Part shown: piece after piece, positions 25,980-62,217 of the stretch
Layout of the letters: every line of letters begins with the position of its first letter
How positions within the stretch are numbered: position 1 is the first letter of the stretch
NCBI RefSeq assembly: GCF_006716425.1
Contig: NZ_VFOZ01000001.1
Coordinates: 4,340,001 to 4,404,000 of the forward strand
Direction of reading: 5' to 3'
Length of the DNA stretch: 64,000 nucleotides
From: Actinoallomurus bryophytorum
GTDB lineage: Bacteria > Actinomycetota > Actinomycetes > Streptosporangiales > Streptosporangiaceae
Notes under the pieces: generated by a model
Seen by the model: only the letters and a program-made list of their open reading frames with translations
Told to the model about the DNA's origin: nothing
Database searches by the model: none
Translations under genes and position numbers: made by a program

Positions 25980-26681
25980 ATGCGCGTCGCGCTTTTCATC
26001 ACCTGCGTCAATGACACGCTCTTCCCCGGCACGGGGAAGGCGGTCGTTCGCCTGCTGGAGCGGCTCGGCTGCACCGTCGACTTCCCGGCGGAGCAGAGCT
26101 GCTGCGGCCAGATGCACTTCAACACCGGCTACCGCGACGACGCGAAGCCACTCGCGAGCCGTTTCGTCTCGACGTTCAGCGGCTACGAGGCCGTGGTCGT
26201 GCCGTCCGGCTCGTGCGCGGCGATGGTCCGCGAGTGGTATCCCTCACTCGGCATCTCACCGCCGGGCGGGGTCTTCGAGCTGACGGAGTTCCTCGTCGAC
26301 GTGCTCGGCGTGACCGATGTCGGCGCGTACTTCCCGCACACGGTGACCTACCACCCGACCTGCCACTCCCTGCGCTCCCTCAAGGTGGGCTCGCGCCCGC
26401 TGGACCTGCTCTCGGAGGTACGCGGCCTGACGCTGGTGCCGCTCGGCGGCGCGGAGGAGTGCTGTGGTTTCGGCGGGACGTTCTCGCTCAAGAACCCCGC
26501 GGTGTCGGCCGCGATGTGCTCGGACAAGGTGCGCAGCGTGCTGGACACCGGCGCCGAGGTGCTCTGCGCCGCCGACAACTCCTGCCTGATGCACATCGGC
26601 GGCGCGCTGTCGCGGCAGCGTACGGGCGTGCGGGTCATGCACCTGGCAGAGATCCTCGCGGCCACGGAGGGGGACACGTGA
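25980..26681 (+). CDS. lutA: L-lactate utilisation protein LutA (Fe-S protein)
   Basis: A 233-residue protein with two cysteine-rich CCG modules: SCCGQMH near residue 41 and ECCGFGGTF near 161, each preceded by further Cys (CVND, PTCHS, NSCLM). This is LutA/YkgE, part of the LutABC complex that oxidises L-lactate to pyruvate. Here it follows a pathway that yields lactate. Its TGA overlaps the GTG of a repeat-encoded mini-ORF. Confidence 0.92.
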   Translation: MRVALFITCVNDTLFPGTGKAVVRLLERLGCTVDFPAEQSCCGQMHFNTGYRDDAKPLASRFVSTFSGYEAVVVPSGSCAAMVREWYPSLGISPPGGVFELTEFLVDVLGVTDVGAYFPHTVTYHPTCHSLRSLKVGSRPLDLLSEVRGLTLVPLGGAEECCGFGGTFSLKNPAVSAAMCSDKVRSVLDTGAEVLCAADNSCLMHIGGALSRQRTGVRVMHLAEILAATEGDT

Positions 26682-26749
26682 CCGAGCGGAGCGAGGGAAC
26701 CGGAAGGCACAGCACCATGGTCGCCTCTCCGACGAAGGAGGCCCCGTGA
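26678..26749 (+). CDS. 23-codon mini-ORF of MIRU-like repeat, unit 1
   Basis: GTG-started ORF encoding VTERSEGTGRHSTMVASPTK then EAP. Its GTG overlaps the lutA stop (GTGA) and its own TGA overlaps the next GTG. The last codons carry GAAGGAGG, the ribosome-binding site of the next ORF. The peptide itself may have no role; the reading frame probably keeps ribosomes moving between lutA and lutB. Confidence 0.6.
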   Translation: MTERSEGTGRHSTMVASPTKEAP

Positions 26750-26813
26750 GCGAGCGGAGCGAGGGCACAGTCAGGCACAGCACTAGGTTCGCGCGCCCGA
26801 CGAAGGAGGCCTC
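26678..26813 (+). repeat. Tandem pair of 68-bp MIRU-like repeats in the lut operon
   Basis: Two units (26678-26745 and 26746-26813) fill the lutA-lutB gap exactly. Each begins GTGA(C/G)CGAGCGGAGCGAGGG, contains GGCACAGCAC and ends CGACGAAGGAGGCC. Start-to-start distance is 68 bp both times, which shifts the frame and restores a stop/start overlap. Related copies are at 55584-55836 and 62149-62217. Confidence 0.85.
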
Positions 26814-26817
26814 ATGA
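26746..26817 (+). CDS. 23-codon mini-ORF of MIRU-like repeat, unit 2
   Basis: Encodes VSERSEGTVRHSTRFARPTK then EAS. It starts at the GTG overlapping unit 1's stop and ends with a TGA overlapping the lutB ATG. It has the same length and layout as unit 1, with divergence mostly in the middle. Peptide function is doubtful; coupling is the likely role. Confidence 0.6.
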   Translation: MSERSEGTVRHSTRFARPTKEAS

Positions 26818-28208
26818 ACGCCTTTGTCGGGATGCCGAGTTTTCCGAAGGCGTCGTCGAAGTCGGTCTCGGACGCGCAGCTGCGGCACAACCTGCGCAAG
26901 GCCACCCACACGATCCGCGCCAAGCGCGCCCTCGTCGTCGACGAGCAGCCGGACTGGGCCGCCCTGCGCTCGGCCGGCGCCGCGATCAAGGACCGTACGC
27001 TCCGGCACCTGGACGTCTACCTCGAACGGCTGGAAGAGGCCGTGACGGCGGCGGGCGGCACGGTGCACTGGGCCGCCGACGCGGCCGAGGCCAACCGGAT
27101 CGTCACCGGCCTGGTGAAGGCCACCGGCGAGACCGAGGTCGTCAAGGTCAAGTCCATGGCCACCCAGGAGATCGACCTGAACTCCGCGCTAGAGGCCGAG
27201 GGCATCACGGCGTACGAGACCGACCTCGCGGAGCTGATCGTGCAGCTCGGCGACGACTGGCCCTCCCACATCCTGGTCCCGGCCATCCACCGGAACCGCG
27301 CGGAGATCCGCGAGATCTTCCTGTCGAAGATGGCGGCATGGGGCCGGCCCGCACCGGCGGACCTCAAGGACGACCCGCGCGCCCTGGCCGACGCCGCCCG
27401 GCTGCACCTGCGCGAACGCTTCCTGTCCGCGCGTGTGGGCATCTCGGGCGCCAACTTCGCCGTCGCCGAGACGGGCACCCTCGTCGTCCTGGAGTCCGAG
27501 GGCAACGGGCGGATGTGCCTCACGCTCCCCGAGACGCTGATCTCGGTGGTCGGCATCGAGAAGATCGTGCCGACCTGGCAGGACCTCGAGGTCTTCATGC
27601 AGCTGCTGCCGCGTTCGTCCACCGGTGAGCGGATGAACCCGTACACCTCGATGTGGACCGGCGCGACCGAGGGCCAGACGTTCCATCTCGTGCTCCTCGA
27701 CAACGGCCGCACGTCGGTGCTCGCGGACGAGGTCGGCCGTCAGGCGCTGCGCTGTATCCGCTGCTCGGCCTGCCTGAACGTCTGCCCGGTGTACGAACGG
27801 GCGGGCGGCCACGCGTACGGCTCGGTGTACCCGGGTCCGATCGGCGCGATCCTGACCCCGCAGCTGAAGGGGATGGCCGGTCCGCTGGAGGAGTCGCTGC
27901 CGTACGCCTCGACGCTCTGCGGCGCCTGCTACGACGTGTGCCCGGTCGCCATCAACATCCCCGAGGTGCTGCTCGACCTGCGCTCGAAGGTCGTGACCCG
28001 CGGACACCACGGCCAGCGCCTCGCGATGGGCGCGGCCCGGCGGGTGCTGGACTCGCCCCGCTGGCTGGCGGTGGCGCAGAACTCGGCGGGCCGCCTGCGA
28101 CACTGGACCCCGCGCCGCCTGCCCGGCCCGCTGTCGGCCTGGTCCGACACCCGAGACGTCCCCCGGCCCCCGAAGGAGTCCTTCCGCCAATGGTGGGCGA
28201 CCCGATGA
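26814..28208 (+). CDS. lutB: L-lactate utilisation protein LutB (Fe-S protein)
   Basis: A 464-residue LutB/YkgF protein. The LUD domain occupies about 60-300 (SGANFAVAETGTLVVLESEGNG), followed by two 4Fe-4S motifs, CIRCSACLNVCPVYE near 316 and CGACYDVCPVAINIPE near 370, and a C-terminal DUF3390-like tail. It carries electrons during L-lactate oxidation. ATG at 26814 has AAGGAGG from the repeat unit immediately upstream. ATGA overlap with lutC. Confidence 0.93.
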   Translation: MNAFVGMPSFPKASSKSVSDAQLRHNLRKATHTIRAKRALVVDEQPDWAALRSAGAAIKDRTLRHLDVYLERLEEAVTAAGGTVHWAADAAEANRIVTGLVKATGETEVVKVKSMATQEIDLNSALEAEGITAYETDLAELIVQLGDDWPSHILVPAIHRNRAEIREIFLSKMAAWGRPAPADLKDDPRALADAARLHLRERFLSARVGISGANFAVAETGTLVVLESEGNGRMCLTLPETLISVVGIEKIVPTWQDLEVFMQLLPRSSTGERMNPYTSMWTGATEGQTFHLVLLDNGRTSVLADEVGRQALRCIRCSACLNVCPVYERAGGHAYGSVYPGPIGAILTPQLKGMAGPLEESLPYASTLCGACYDVCPVAINIPEVLLDLRSKVVTRGHHGQRLAMGAARRVLDSPRWLAVAQNSAGRLRHWTPRRLPGPLSAWSDTRDVPRPPKESFRQWWATR

Positions 28209-54519: not shown

Positions 54520-55587
54520 CTACGTGCAATCAAGGTGCGACGATGCACGTTGGTAAACCTCGTCCAAAGTCACCGATAGTGACCTCGGACTGCAACGGTC
54601 CGCCACCCGCTTCAGCGCCGCGCGGCCCATTCTGCGCGCTTCGGCCGGATTATCCAGAAGATATGTGATCGCGTCGGCGAGCTGTGCCGGATCGCCCGGC
54701 GCGGTGAGAAGACCCGTCTCACCGGCGCGGATGATGTCCGGGCCGCTCGGCGCGACGGTCCCCACCAGCGGCACGCCGGCCGCGGCGGCCTGGACGGCGG
54801 CGTACGGCACTCCCTCGTGCCGGCCGGTCATCGCGAGCACGTCGAAGCCGGGCAGCAGGTCGGCCACGTCGTCGCGCCGCCCCAGCCAGATCAGCCGCTC
54901 GCCGCCGACGCGCTCGGTGAACCTCTGGCCGAGCCGTCCCGGCAGCCGCGCCGCGGGGCCGCCGTCGCCGTCCGCCCAGACGCCGTAGACGCTCGAGGGC
55001 AGCCGGGCGATGGCCCGCGCGAACACGTCCGGCCGCCGCGCACCGCGCGCCGGACCGATCCCCCCGACCACCTGTGCGCCCAGGGGAAGCCCGAGCAGCC
55101 GCCGGGCGCGGGTACGCGTGCCCGCCAGGTTCGGCAGGTCCACGGCCGGCCAGATCGCCCGCAGCCGCCCCGGTGACGCCAGGCCGAGCCGGAGGGCGCG
55201 CGAGGCGGTACGTGCGCCCACGGCGAGGAACACGTCGGTGTGCCGTGCGGCCCGGCGCTCGGCGAGGGTGGGGCCGGGTGGGGCGTACCAGGTGTGGACG
55301 ATCCGCGGGACGCCGGCACGTACGGCGGCGAACCGCCCGGCCGTCCCCACGTGGGTGTGGGCGATGTCGTACCCGCCGCCCATGGCCTCGGCCAGCGCGC
55401 GCGGCCCGTGCGCGTGGATCACCGCGATCCCGGACTCCCGTGCCCACGCGTCGAGGGCGCCCGGCTCACCGGCGACCACGGTGTGCGCGTACGCCTCCGG
55501 GTCGAGCGCGAGCGCCGCGGTCAGCGCGGCGCGCGCCGGTCCTCCCTCGAACCGGTCGAGCACCAGCGCGACGCGCACGGGAGTCAC
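54520..55587 (-). CDS. GT4-type glycosyltransferase
   Basis: A 355-residue GT-B glycosyltransferase. The N-terminal half has VALVLDRFEGGPARAAL, IAHTHVGTAGRF and IVHTWYAP, and the C-terminal half has VVGGIGPARGARRPD, LIWLGRRDDV and RHEGVPYAAVQAAAAGVPLVGT. The second Glu of the EX7E motif is Gln here. It probably adds a sugar to a polysaccharide or lipid carrier. GTG start overlaps the third repeat-encoded ORF and is thereby coupled to the upstream epimerase-like gene. Confidence 0.85.
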   Translation of the reverse strand: MTPVRVALVLDRFEGGPARAALTAALALDPEAYAHTVVAGEPGALDAWARESGIAVIHAHGPRALAEAMGGGYDIAHTHVGTAGRFAAVRAGVPRIVHTWYAPPGPTLAERRAARHTDVFLAVGARTASRALRLGLASPGRLRAIWPAVDLPNLAGTRTRARRLLGLPLGAQVVGGIGPARGARRPDVFARAIARLPSSVYGVWADGDGGPAARLPGRLGQRFTERVGGERLIWLGRRDDVADLLPGFDVLAMTGRHEGVPYAAVQAAAAGVPLVGTVAPSGPDIIRAGETGLLTAPGDPAQLADAITYLLDNPAEARRMGRAALKRVADRCSPRSLSVTLDEVYQRASSHLDCT

Positions 55588-55700
55588 GTGACCTCCTCTT
55601 CCACCGGCGGTGCGAGCAGGCGCTCGCCGCTTCGCTCGGTCATGCGGCCAGTGGCGATCGGGGGACTGTGCCTTCTGGTTCCCTCGCTCCGCTCGGTCAC
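55584..55700 (-). CDS. 38-codon mini-ORF of MIRU-like repeat (fused unit)
   Basis: It encodes VTERSEGTRRHSPPIATGRM and continues TERSGERLLAPPVEEEVT. So one unit runs in frame into a second partial copy. Its TGA overlaps the glycosyltransferase GTG, and GAGGAGG near its end is the SD for that gene. Confidence 0.6.
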   Translation of the reverse strand: MTERSEGTRRHSPPIATGRMTERSGERLLAPPVEEEVT

Positions 55701-55768
55701 GGGCCCTCCTGCGTCGGGGGAGTGACCGGGGGACTGTGCCTTCTGGTTCCCTCGCTTCGCTCGGTCAC
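55697..55768 (-). CDS. 23-codon mini-ORF of MIRU-like repeat
   Basis: It encodes VTERSEGTRRHSPPVTPPTQ then EGP. It is linked by GTGA overlaps on both sides. Its sequence differs from the preceding unit by very few bases, which points to recent duplication by slippage or unequal crossing-over. Confidence 0.6.
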   Translation of the reverse strand: MTERSEGTRRHSPPVTPPTQEGP

Positions 55769-55836
55769 GGGCCCTCCCGCGTCGGGGGAGTGACCGGGGG
55801 ACTGTGCCTTCTGGTTCCCTCGCTTCGCTCGGTCAC
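55765..55836 (-). CDS. 23-codon mini-ORF of MIRU-like repeat
   Basis: It encodes VTERSEGTRRHSPPVTPPTR then EGP. Its GTG overlaps the stop of the epimerase-like gene (GTGA). The first 12 residues match the lut-operon units (V-T/S-ERSEGT-x-RHS). Confidence 0.6.
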   Translation of the reverse strand: MTERSEGTRRHSPPVTPPTREGP

Positions 55837-61557: not shown

Positions 61558-62148
61558 TTACTGGGGGTTCCGCCACATAGGCCACACGCGCGGACCGCCG
61601 CCGGGTACGCGGATCTCGCCGGTCACCCGGAAGCCGAAGCGCTCGTAGTAGGAGACGTTGCTCTCCTTGGAGGACTCCAGGTACGCCGGGAACCGCCGGT
61701 CGTCACAGCGGGACAGCCGCGACCGCAGCAGGGCCGAGCCGAGCCCCCGGCCCTGGGCGGACGGATCGGTGCCCAGGACGGCCAGGTACCAGTGCGGCTC
61801 GATCGGGTGCTCGCGTTCGATCTCGCCGAGCCCGTACATGACGGTGAAGGTCCTGGTGCCCAGCACCCGCAGCAGGCCGGGGAGCTGACGGAGCTGGGTG
61901 GCGAGCGAGATCCTCCACCGGCCCGGCGGATCCCAGAGCGCGCCGGCCAGGATCCGTCCGTCCTGTTCGGCCAGCTCGCTGACGCCGTTCGGCAGCCGGG
62001 CGTGGTGGAGCAGCAGCCCGAACATGGCGGCCATCCGCTCCGGGTGCCGGGGGAACATCCACAGCCAGACCGGGTCGTCGGCGAAGGCACGGCCGAGCAC
62101 CGCCGCCAGGGAGTCGGCATCGGGGGCGGTGACGTCGCGGACCTTCAC
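61558..62148 (-). CDS. GNAT-family acetyltransferase
   Basis: A 196-residue GNAT protein. It begins VKVRDVTAPDADSLAAVL, has LAVLGTDPSAQGRGLGSALL (acetyl-CoA motif A) and ESSKESNVSYYERFGFRV. GTG at 62148 is set by GAAGGAGG 5 nt upstream. The 23 codons before it, from ATG 62217, are in frame and derive from a MIRU-like repeat, so a longer protein of 219 residues is possible. It is divergent from the holin-like gene. Confidence 0.88.
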   Translation of the reverse strand: MKVRDVTAPDADSLAAVLGRAFADDPVWLWMFPRHPERMAAMFGLLLHHARLPNGVSELAEQDGRILAGALWDPPGRWRISLATQLRQLPGLLRVLGTRTFTVMYGLGEIEREHPIEPHWYLAVLGTDPSAQGRGLGSALLRSRLSRCDDRRFPAYLESSKESNVSYYERFGFRVTGEIRVPGGGPRVWPMWRNPQ

Positions 62149-62217
62149 GAGTCCTCCTTCGCCGGAGGGGGTGGCCGAGCGCGCTGGGTCTCCGGTTCGC
62201 TCGCTCGGCTCACTCAT
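62149..62217 (-). repeat. MIRU-like unit joined in frame to a GNAT gene
   Basis: From ATG 62217 the frame reads MSEPSERTGDPARSATPSGE then GGL before the GNAT GTG: exactly 23 codons (69 bp), one base longer than the coupled units. It keeps the M-S/T-E-x-S-E-x-T start and the GAAGGAGG end. The extra base (or base-pair drift) removes the stop/start overlap and makes an N-terminal extension possible. Confidence 0.6.

Follow-up and report, generated by a model that had tools for sequence, protein, structure and literature searches.

How can a repeated DNA element come to lie between the stop codon of one gene and the start codon of the next without breaking the operon? The question is raised by the lutA-lutB junction of Actinoallomurus bryophytorum, which falls within a 64,000-nucleotide stretch of its genome (contig NZ_VFOZ01000001.1, positions 4,340,001 to 4,404,000 of the forward strand; hereafter the window). 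An earlier inspection of the letters alone (the sequence-only reading) had noticed in this gap two units that resemble mycobacterial interspersed repetitive units (MIRUs). Here, these units are followed through the window, the host genome and the genomes of other members of the class.

Repeat units in the window

The upstream gene, lutA, is an open reading frame at 25980-26681 on the plus strand (Pfam CCG, PF02754, E 1.5e-33), the TGA of which lies within the GTGA at 26678-26681. The downstream gene, lutB (26814-28208, plus strand; Pfam LUD_dom, 1.3e-42, and LutB_C, 5.7e-9), starts at an ATGA and is followed at 28205 by a further LUD-domain gene. As the sequence-only reading had stated, the gap is filled by two 68-bp units on the plus strand, at 26678-26745 and 26746-26813, each extending from an RTGA to the base before the next one and matching a sequence model of the family with 62.7 and 48.0 bits, respectively. 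Its description of one 23-codon frame per unit and of GTGA or ATGA at every joint was likewise accurate: mini-ORF 1 (VTERSEGTGRHSTMVASPTKEAP, 26678-26749) and mini-ORF 2 (VSERSEGTVRHSTRFARPTKEAS, 26746-26817) comprise 23 codons plus a stop each, the stops lie within the GTGA at 26746-26749 and the ATGA at 26814-26817, and the three joints read GTGA, GTGA and ATGA. Toward its 3′ end, each unit carries the motif GACGAAGGA (26731-26739 and 26799-26807), recognized in the sequence and placed in a loop by the predicted fold. The AAGGAGG at 26736-26742 in unit 1 is the presumed ribosome-binding site for the next frame, and that at 26804-26810 in unit 2 presumably serves lutB.

A second array of four units occupies 55588-55836 on the minus strand, between a polysaccharide-biosynthesis/epimerase gene and a glycosyltransferase gene starting at 55587. 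It consists of two intact 68-bp units (55836-55769 and 55768-55701) and two shortened ones with borders drawn by eye, one of 57 bp (55700-55644) and a diverged one of 56 bp (55643-55588). The model search also found a diverged 69-bp unit at 62149-62217 (minus strand), which precedes a GNAT acetyltransferase gene starting with GTGA at 62148 and is in frame with it. With up to three mismatches allowed, the motif occurs five times in the window (two lut copies and three minus-strand copies within 55681-55836), compared with 0.05 expected from shuffled sequences. No Rfam covariance model matched positions 26500-27000 of the window up to an E value of 1, and a known RNA family was rejected as the identity of the lut units.

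Size and distribution of the family

Against the possibility of few genomic copies that had been raised for the sequence-only reading, the 9.47-Mb host genome contains 34 exact copies of RTGASCGAGCGNAGCGAG and a further 24 with one mismatch, while the reversed control pattern has none; CGAGCGNAGCGAGGG occurs in 25 exact copies. A sequence model derived from 28 units, of which it covers the 59 inner positions and omits the ends, gave at least 78 matches at E ≤ 0.01, a lower bound since scoring extended to 150 of 16945 first-look candidates. The exact pattern is present in seven of eight Actinoallomurus genomes, with 21 copies in the host and 23 in a second genome (G001); a third genome of the genus (G002, 5.8 Mb) has zero copies, and its lut site is empty (L216). 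Among the 80 records listed, a two-part pattern was found in Actinoallomurus, Nonomuraea, Planomonospora, Planobispora, Streptosporangium, Actinomadura, Thermocatellispora, Flexivirga, Leekyejoonella and Actinopolymorpha, together with a few unrelated chance matches; the 153 pattern matches include about ten chance hits or unrelated repeats (e.g., L144, L182, L201 and L209).

The 5′ core is present in 34 of 296 genomes of the class and in 16 of 115 genera, a count of cores rather than of proven units, because it includes a feature at L269-L276. This is a frame starting MSERSER, apparently at one conserved locus in a large genus (g87) that we take to be Streptomyces, with variable sequence after it and an end, where found, at 122 or 128. 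The feature is probably an ordinary gene start, or perhaps an ancient unit that has become fixed. Other high-GC sequences (L114, L205 and L209) carry the core GAGCGCAGCGAG away from start codons, and at L209 this core adjoins a long GC palindrome.

Across the host and the other genomes, 137 arrays were collected, of which 108 are single, 26 double, 2 triple and 1 quadruple. Decayed units are under-represented among them, because units were picked by an exact 5′ core and a loop ending in GGAGG.

Placement at start codons and empty sites

Since the model omits the unit ends, the ends themselves are open to testing. Complete host matches begin with RTGA in 54 of 60 cases and end at a DTGA with the expected spacing in 60 of 70, a preference for stop/start overlaps the lack of which would have told against the sequence-only reading. 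Of these 70 3′ ends, 51 are joined directly by a coding ORF of 90 or more codons and 11 by a short ORF or a further unit; seven have no DTGA nearby. In the wider collection, DTGA opens 125 of the 137 arrays; the stop codon of the upstream gene lies inside it in 70 of the 125, and a coding frame follows in 104. Some units occupy leader positions, where the upstream gene does not overlap.

The lut junctions of the eight Actinoallomurus genomes provide a direct comparison. The host has two units and L218 one, L217 retains a 44-bp copy that is partly deleted and has kept its frame, and L215 has an enlarged and decayed copy. (The L215 gap also contains three copies of a 9-bp sequence, GAGCGAATC, an in-frame expansion.) At L214 and L216 there is no unit, and the two genes simply overlap, in GTGA and in ATGA, respectively; L219 reads TGACCATG, and L220 is too divergent to call. 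The unit is thus absent in three of the seven other Actinoallomurus genomes, two of which have a plain RTGA overlap, and unit number, a comparison that had been suggested earlier between strains, varies at lut between Actinoallomurus species. The units sit at RTGA, and the corresponding sites are empty in relatives. Chance or local duplication as their origin is ruled out by the genome-wide counts and the empty sites.

Maintenance of the reading frame

Unit lengths range from 41 to 107 bp. In a set of 175 units, one for each distinct downstream protein, 151 lengths are 2 mod 3, 22 are 0 and two are 1; unit ends were sought up to 111 bp in this set, and lengths of 87, 103 (itself 1 mod 3), 105 and 111 were dropped as wrong ends. 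Three samples that have units in common give 130, 35 and 0 (165 units), 80, 8 and 0 (the 88 of 109 starts with a defined end; the 109 contain the L269-L276 feature) and 36, 9 and 1 (the 46 complete host units) in the same order. A length of 2 mod 3 means that the stop of the mini-ORF falls in the next RTGA, and a length of 0 mod 3 that the mini-ORF is fused in frame to the gene, as in the 69-bp units, which yield a fusion instead of a separate peptide. The mini-ORF is open in 164 of 165 units, with an internal stop in the remaining one. This suggests that translation of the units may be the target of selection. In annotation, units can be mistaken for N-terminal extensions starting MSERSE or MTERSE.

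A predicted hairpin arm matched to the downstream gene

What the sequence-only reading missed is a predicted hairpin arm that matches the first codons of the downstream gene. In the predicted fold, the unit turns back on its own 3′ end and on the gene, part of AAGGAGG lies in the loop (GACGNAGGA), and the 5′ arm is complementary to the opening codons of whichever gene follows. In 71-bp units, the match extends over nine nucleotides of the gene and then ends; in 68-bp units, it extends over six. Often, the 71-bp arm is the reverse complement of the first nine nucleotides of its gene, as in ATGAACGTG (L211), GTGAGCGTT (L119), ATGAACGAC (L105), ATGAGCGCG (L126), ATGAGCGAG (L099) and ATGAGCGGG (L123). 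The matched letters belong to the gene and lie outside the repeat.

Covariation was assessed on terminal units with a recognized start (112 units from the 137 arrays); for the permutation sets of 17 (71-bp) and 67 (68-bp) units, L166, L185 and rows with identical gene starts were excluded. In the 71-bp set, 75 of 85 cells are paired at gene nucleotides 5-9, as against 48.7 on permutation of the genes (maximum 64 in 5000 permutations), and 25 of 85 are paired at nucleotides 10-14, which is the chance level (27.4). All nine positions are paired in eight of the 17 units, and G·U pairs and mismatches are equally frequent in this set (10 and 10). By position, among 19 units of 71 bp, P is 0.012 at nucleotide 5, <0.001 at 7, <0.001 at 8 and 0.004 at 9; neither nucleotide 6 (P = 0.107) nor the first base of the start codon (P = 0.337) exceeds permutation in these 19 units. 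The 68-bp set shows 109 of 134 cells paired at nucleotides 5-6 (89.0 permuted, maximum 103 in 5000 permutations) and 209 of 536 at nucleotides 7-14, again at chance (220.4). Pairing is frequent through nucleotide 6 and falls beyond it, all six positions are paired in 24 of the 67 units, and covariation is confined to nucleotide 5 (nucleotide 6 is paired at 0.82, compared with 0.81 permuted); the first base of the start codon shows no significant covariation in the 68-bp units (P = 0.098), and no significant covariation with the gene was found in 13 units of 69 bp. In both intervals that exceed chance, the observed pairing lies beyond all 5000 permutations. The duplex energy between arm and start region also surpasses all permutations, even when genes are swapped only among those sharing the same RTGA and next base. 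With this restricted swap, the effect over the gene's own eight bases is small (-7.83 compared with -7.51 kcal/mol, z = -3.1). These comparisons show a predicted pairing that is specific to the gene.

The match is far from universal. In 39 of the 112 units, no helix longer than four is formed with the start region, and many Actinoallomurus units have no match to their gene. The common Actinoallomurus type (arm GGTCACTCCTCC) can pair with the binding site (CCTCC with GGAGG), not with the start codon. The lut units of the window belong to the weakly gene-matched part of the family: for lut unit 2, folding predicts that most of the binding-site region is paired (unpaired 0.23), to judge by eye with codons of lutB itself, and that the start codon is mostly free (0.71). 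The 77-, 80- and 83-bp units of other lineages have unrelated 3′ halves, and many of them (e.g., L281, L287, L314 and L324) form a stem containing the start codon.

The median predicted probability that the start codon is unpaired is 0.14 in 161 units, compared with 0.49 at 57 native RTGA junctions (P = 1.6e-7); units do not conceal the binding-site region more than these junctions do (median unpaired 0.45 and 0.40, respectively). Swapping genes between units weakens the predicted local fold from -22.35 to -20.35 kcal/mol overall. Within the 68-, 71- and 77-bp classes, none of 100 swaps gave a fold as strong as the real one; this did not hold within the 69- and 80-bp classes.

The ribBA-ribH locus of Nonomuraea

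The gene behind the unit at L123 and L166 is ribH, encoding lumazine synthase, which lies downstream of ribBA. Among the 54 Nonomuraea (g4) loci of 70 ribH loci, tallied by eye with the total checked, an intact unit is present in five (L435, L445, L462, L464 and L469), a decayed unit in three (L437, L448 and L450) and no recognized unit in 46. An RTGA overlap between ribBA and ribH is found in 39 of these 46 and not in the other seven (L442, L443, L446, L449, L453, L459 and L466), some of which have other short inserts; L459, in one genome, carries tandem 16-bp repeats (GAGCCGGATGAGCGAG and variants) immediately before ribH. The remaining 16 of the 70 loci belong to other genera outside the tally, and several have unit-like sequences (e.g., L482, L496 and L501). 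A filled site and an empty site can be aligned directly: the compared upstream flanks of L435 and L436 are identical up to the start codon, L435 has 71 additional bp before ATGAGCGGGG, and the two ribH genes are 99% identical. In a comparison at the species level, unit number varies at ribH as it does at lut.

Of 15 pairs, G·U included, each of the five intact units retains 14 or all 15 by way of compensatory changes. An inner pair of the stem, internal to the element, reads C-G in L435 but T-A in both L462 and L469. The pair at the last base of codon 3 is G-C in L469 and A-T in L464 and is a mismatch in L435 and L462. In L445, three of the pairs are G·U, and there are no mismatches. The outermost pair is broken in two of the five. 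The three decayed units have 2, 3 and 9 mismatches. The pair changes favour selection on the predicted folded RNA after insertion; they may also reflect independent insertions at one site.

How the units may act

We consider it moderately probable that the unit is a start-codon insert of the MIRU type, probably mobile, which relays ribosomes to the gene and carries a hairpin that blocks independent initiation. Each copy of the repeat would take its place precisely within the RTGA of a start codon. Translation of its mini-ORF, about 23 codons long and closed by a new RTGA, would begin from the ribosome-binding site that was there before, in many cases inside the upstream gene; the unit would supply a fresh AAGGAGG before the start codon of the gene, and the ribosome would pass to the gene by termination and reinitiation; in a minority of units, it would instead read in frame into the gene. 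In many units, the loop of the hairpin would hold part of the binding site and the stem the start codon and the next codon or codons, and in others the binding site itself would be paired. Only a ribosome arriving through the mini-ORF would open this hairpin, which would bar other ribosomes from independent use of the unit's own strong site. Because the hairpin would open only by way of the mini-ORF, the gene would keep its original start, upstream control and dose, and the insert would be nearly silent. Such a scheme would suit insertion within operons and at leader positions alike. For lut itself, the sequence-only reading had suggested that ribosome coupling may tune the lutA:lutB ratio, a hypothesis that goes beyond the present results. 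Mobility as such, opening by the ribosome, reinitiation and near-silence are steps that we infer, and confidence in the relay and the hairpin is tempered because the 68-bp units covary at a single position and two of the five intact ribH units have lost the outer pair.

The same pairing could have arisen from movement of the DNA and have no role in mRNA, if the arm selects its landing site by pairing or is a reverse-complement copy made from the target. The guides of IS200/IS605 elements choose their targets by pairing, and the sharp end of the 71-bp match to gene-owned letters after nucleotide 9, the use of RTGA targets with or without an upstream gene and the exactness of insertion at lut and ribH are all as this explanation would have them. 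However, the Y1 transposase (PF01797), which is encoded in two of eight Actinoallomurus genomes, is absent from both the host and G001, with their 21 and 23 exact copies, which leaves Y1 unsupported as the mover. Moreover, at ribH a stem pair internal to the element and the wobble pair of codon 3 change on both sides, G·U pairs occur (although 10 G·U pairs to 10 mismatches in the 71-bp set is close to what neutral decay could give), and many Actinoallomurus units have no gene match. We regard a guide or template in DNA as an unlikely source of the pairing.

It is also conceivable that the units are selfish filler, which merely avoids harm by keeping frame, the hairpin being a by-product of mobility with no effect on translation. 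Scattered presence and absence at the orthologous lut and ribH sites would fit, as would decayed and partly deleted copies that are still in frame, such as the 44-bp lut copy of L217; yet gene-specific pairing with compensatory changes and the lowered predicted accessibility of the start codon speak against it, and we think it quite improbable. Least credible of all, in our estimation, is that the encoded peptide is the functional product. The peptide start, MSERSE or MTERSE, is nearly invariant, and the one variable base of the core falls at a fourfold-degenerate arginine position (minor fraction 0.58, compared with at most 0.08 elsewhere in the core, a figure biased by a model built from units with an exact core). 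On the other hand, the synonymous third positions of two GAG codons are conserved as well (0.05 and 0.07), which implies that the core is held at the level of DNA or RNA; beyond its first half, the peptide varies from lineage to lineage (PTKEGS, RRRRGPA and others); and the 69-bp units make a fusion instead. Conserved GAG third positions and a lineage-variable second half thus disfavour a peptide function.

Returning to the relay with its closing hairpin, it is tempting to speculate further that the repeat fits itself to its host gene, acquiring on or after landing an antisense copy of the first six or nine nucleotides (by templating, guided choice or rapid selection) that would serve as a private lid on the start of that gene, to be opened only by the unit's own mini-ORF. 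The family would then be a portable coupling cassette across Actinobacteria, of which mycobacterial MIRUs would be a related branch. We offer this as a tentative possibility. If the relay is real, it would explain how repeats enter operons, such as that for riboflavin synthesis, without breaking them, it would provide a testable function for start-codon repeats in general, MIRUs included, and it would supply a ready-made coupling module for the design of actinobacterial expression systems.

Comparison with known systems

A review (PMC12548453) cites Supply (1997) for the insertion of MIRUs at start codons and for their coupling. MIRUs such as those of senX3-regX3 and the present units are both direct repeats of roughly 50-100 bp that are scattered through the genome and in part arranged in tandem, and the evidence supports the MIRU-like layout in a non-mycobacterial host that the sequence-only reading had recognized. 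The present units keep frame, their small ORF overlaps the upstream stop and the downstream start by -4 (a minority read in frame instead), and they are inserted at start codons, the corresponding lut and ribH sites being empty in relatives. The sequence-only reading had also stated that the sequence family is different; this is correct for the unit as a whole, and the short core GAGCGNAGCGA, which we take to be the MIRU core, is common to both. The shared part amounts to an 11-nt core; GAGCGNAGCGATGAGGAG was found in eight of the 296 class genomes, all of one genus, presumably Mycobacterium, and not in the host. Two of the mycobacterial-type units (L244 and L250) have a direct repeat of start-region sequence on either side (ATGAGC and ATGATC), which looks like a 6-nt target duplication. 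The two groups differ in host (Actinoallomurus as opposed to mycobacteria) and in the position of the core, which is at the 5′ end in the present units and just before a GAGGAG stretch in MIRUs. They differ, too, in the gene-matched arm, for which no counterpart was spotted by eye in ten MIRU-type loci. According to the review, MIRUs are short, apparently mobile direct repeats that insert at start codons, carry a small ORF, couple at a spacing of -4 and have little effect on the gene (PMC12548453). The MIRU sizes of 77 and 53 bp given elsewhere (PMC4213456) are, like most of those of the present units, 2 mod 3.

IS200/IS605 and REP elements are small hairpin repeats as well. Unlike them, the present units target start codons, and the host genome has no Y1 transposase. 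A further small repeated element, BRE of Bordetella, is listed beside MIRUs by its authors with no function assigned; it is betaproteobacterial, and the part of the report drawn on here describes no start-codon relay (PMC3110155). Leader genes in Actinobacteria are the subject of another study, the consulted portion of which names no such repeat (PMC4833913). Closer in mechanism is the translational coupling of genes VII and IX of phage f1, ascribed in the text excerpted from PMC12548453 to RNA unfolding: both would have a hairpin near the downstream start that is opened by translation of the upstream frame, as is here proposed. By contrast, the present hairpin is part of a repeat, and in many cases it fits the individual host gene. 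In bicistronic design cassettes, as summarized in the same excerpt, a short leader ORF delivers ribosomes and the structure at the start matters less (PMC12548453); the present units differ in being natural, repeated and equipped with a built-in closing hairpin. In the open-licence literature (titles and abstract openings, preprints excluded), neither such units outside mycobacteria nor a gene-matched arm came to light. Since MIRUs have already been described, the kind of element is known; what was not found described in that literature is a family of it outside mycobacteria, together with an arm matched to the gene that it precedes.
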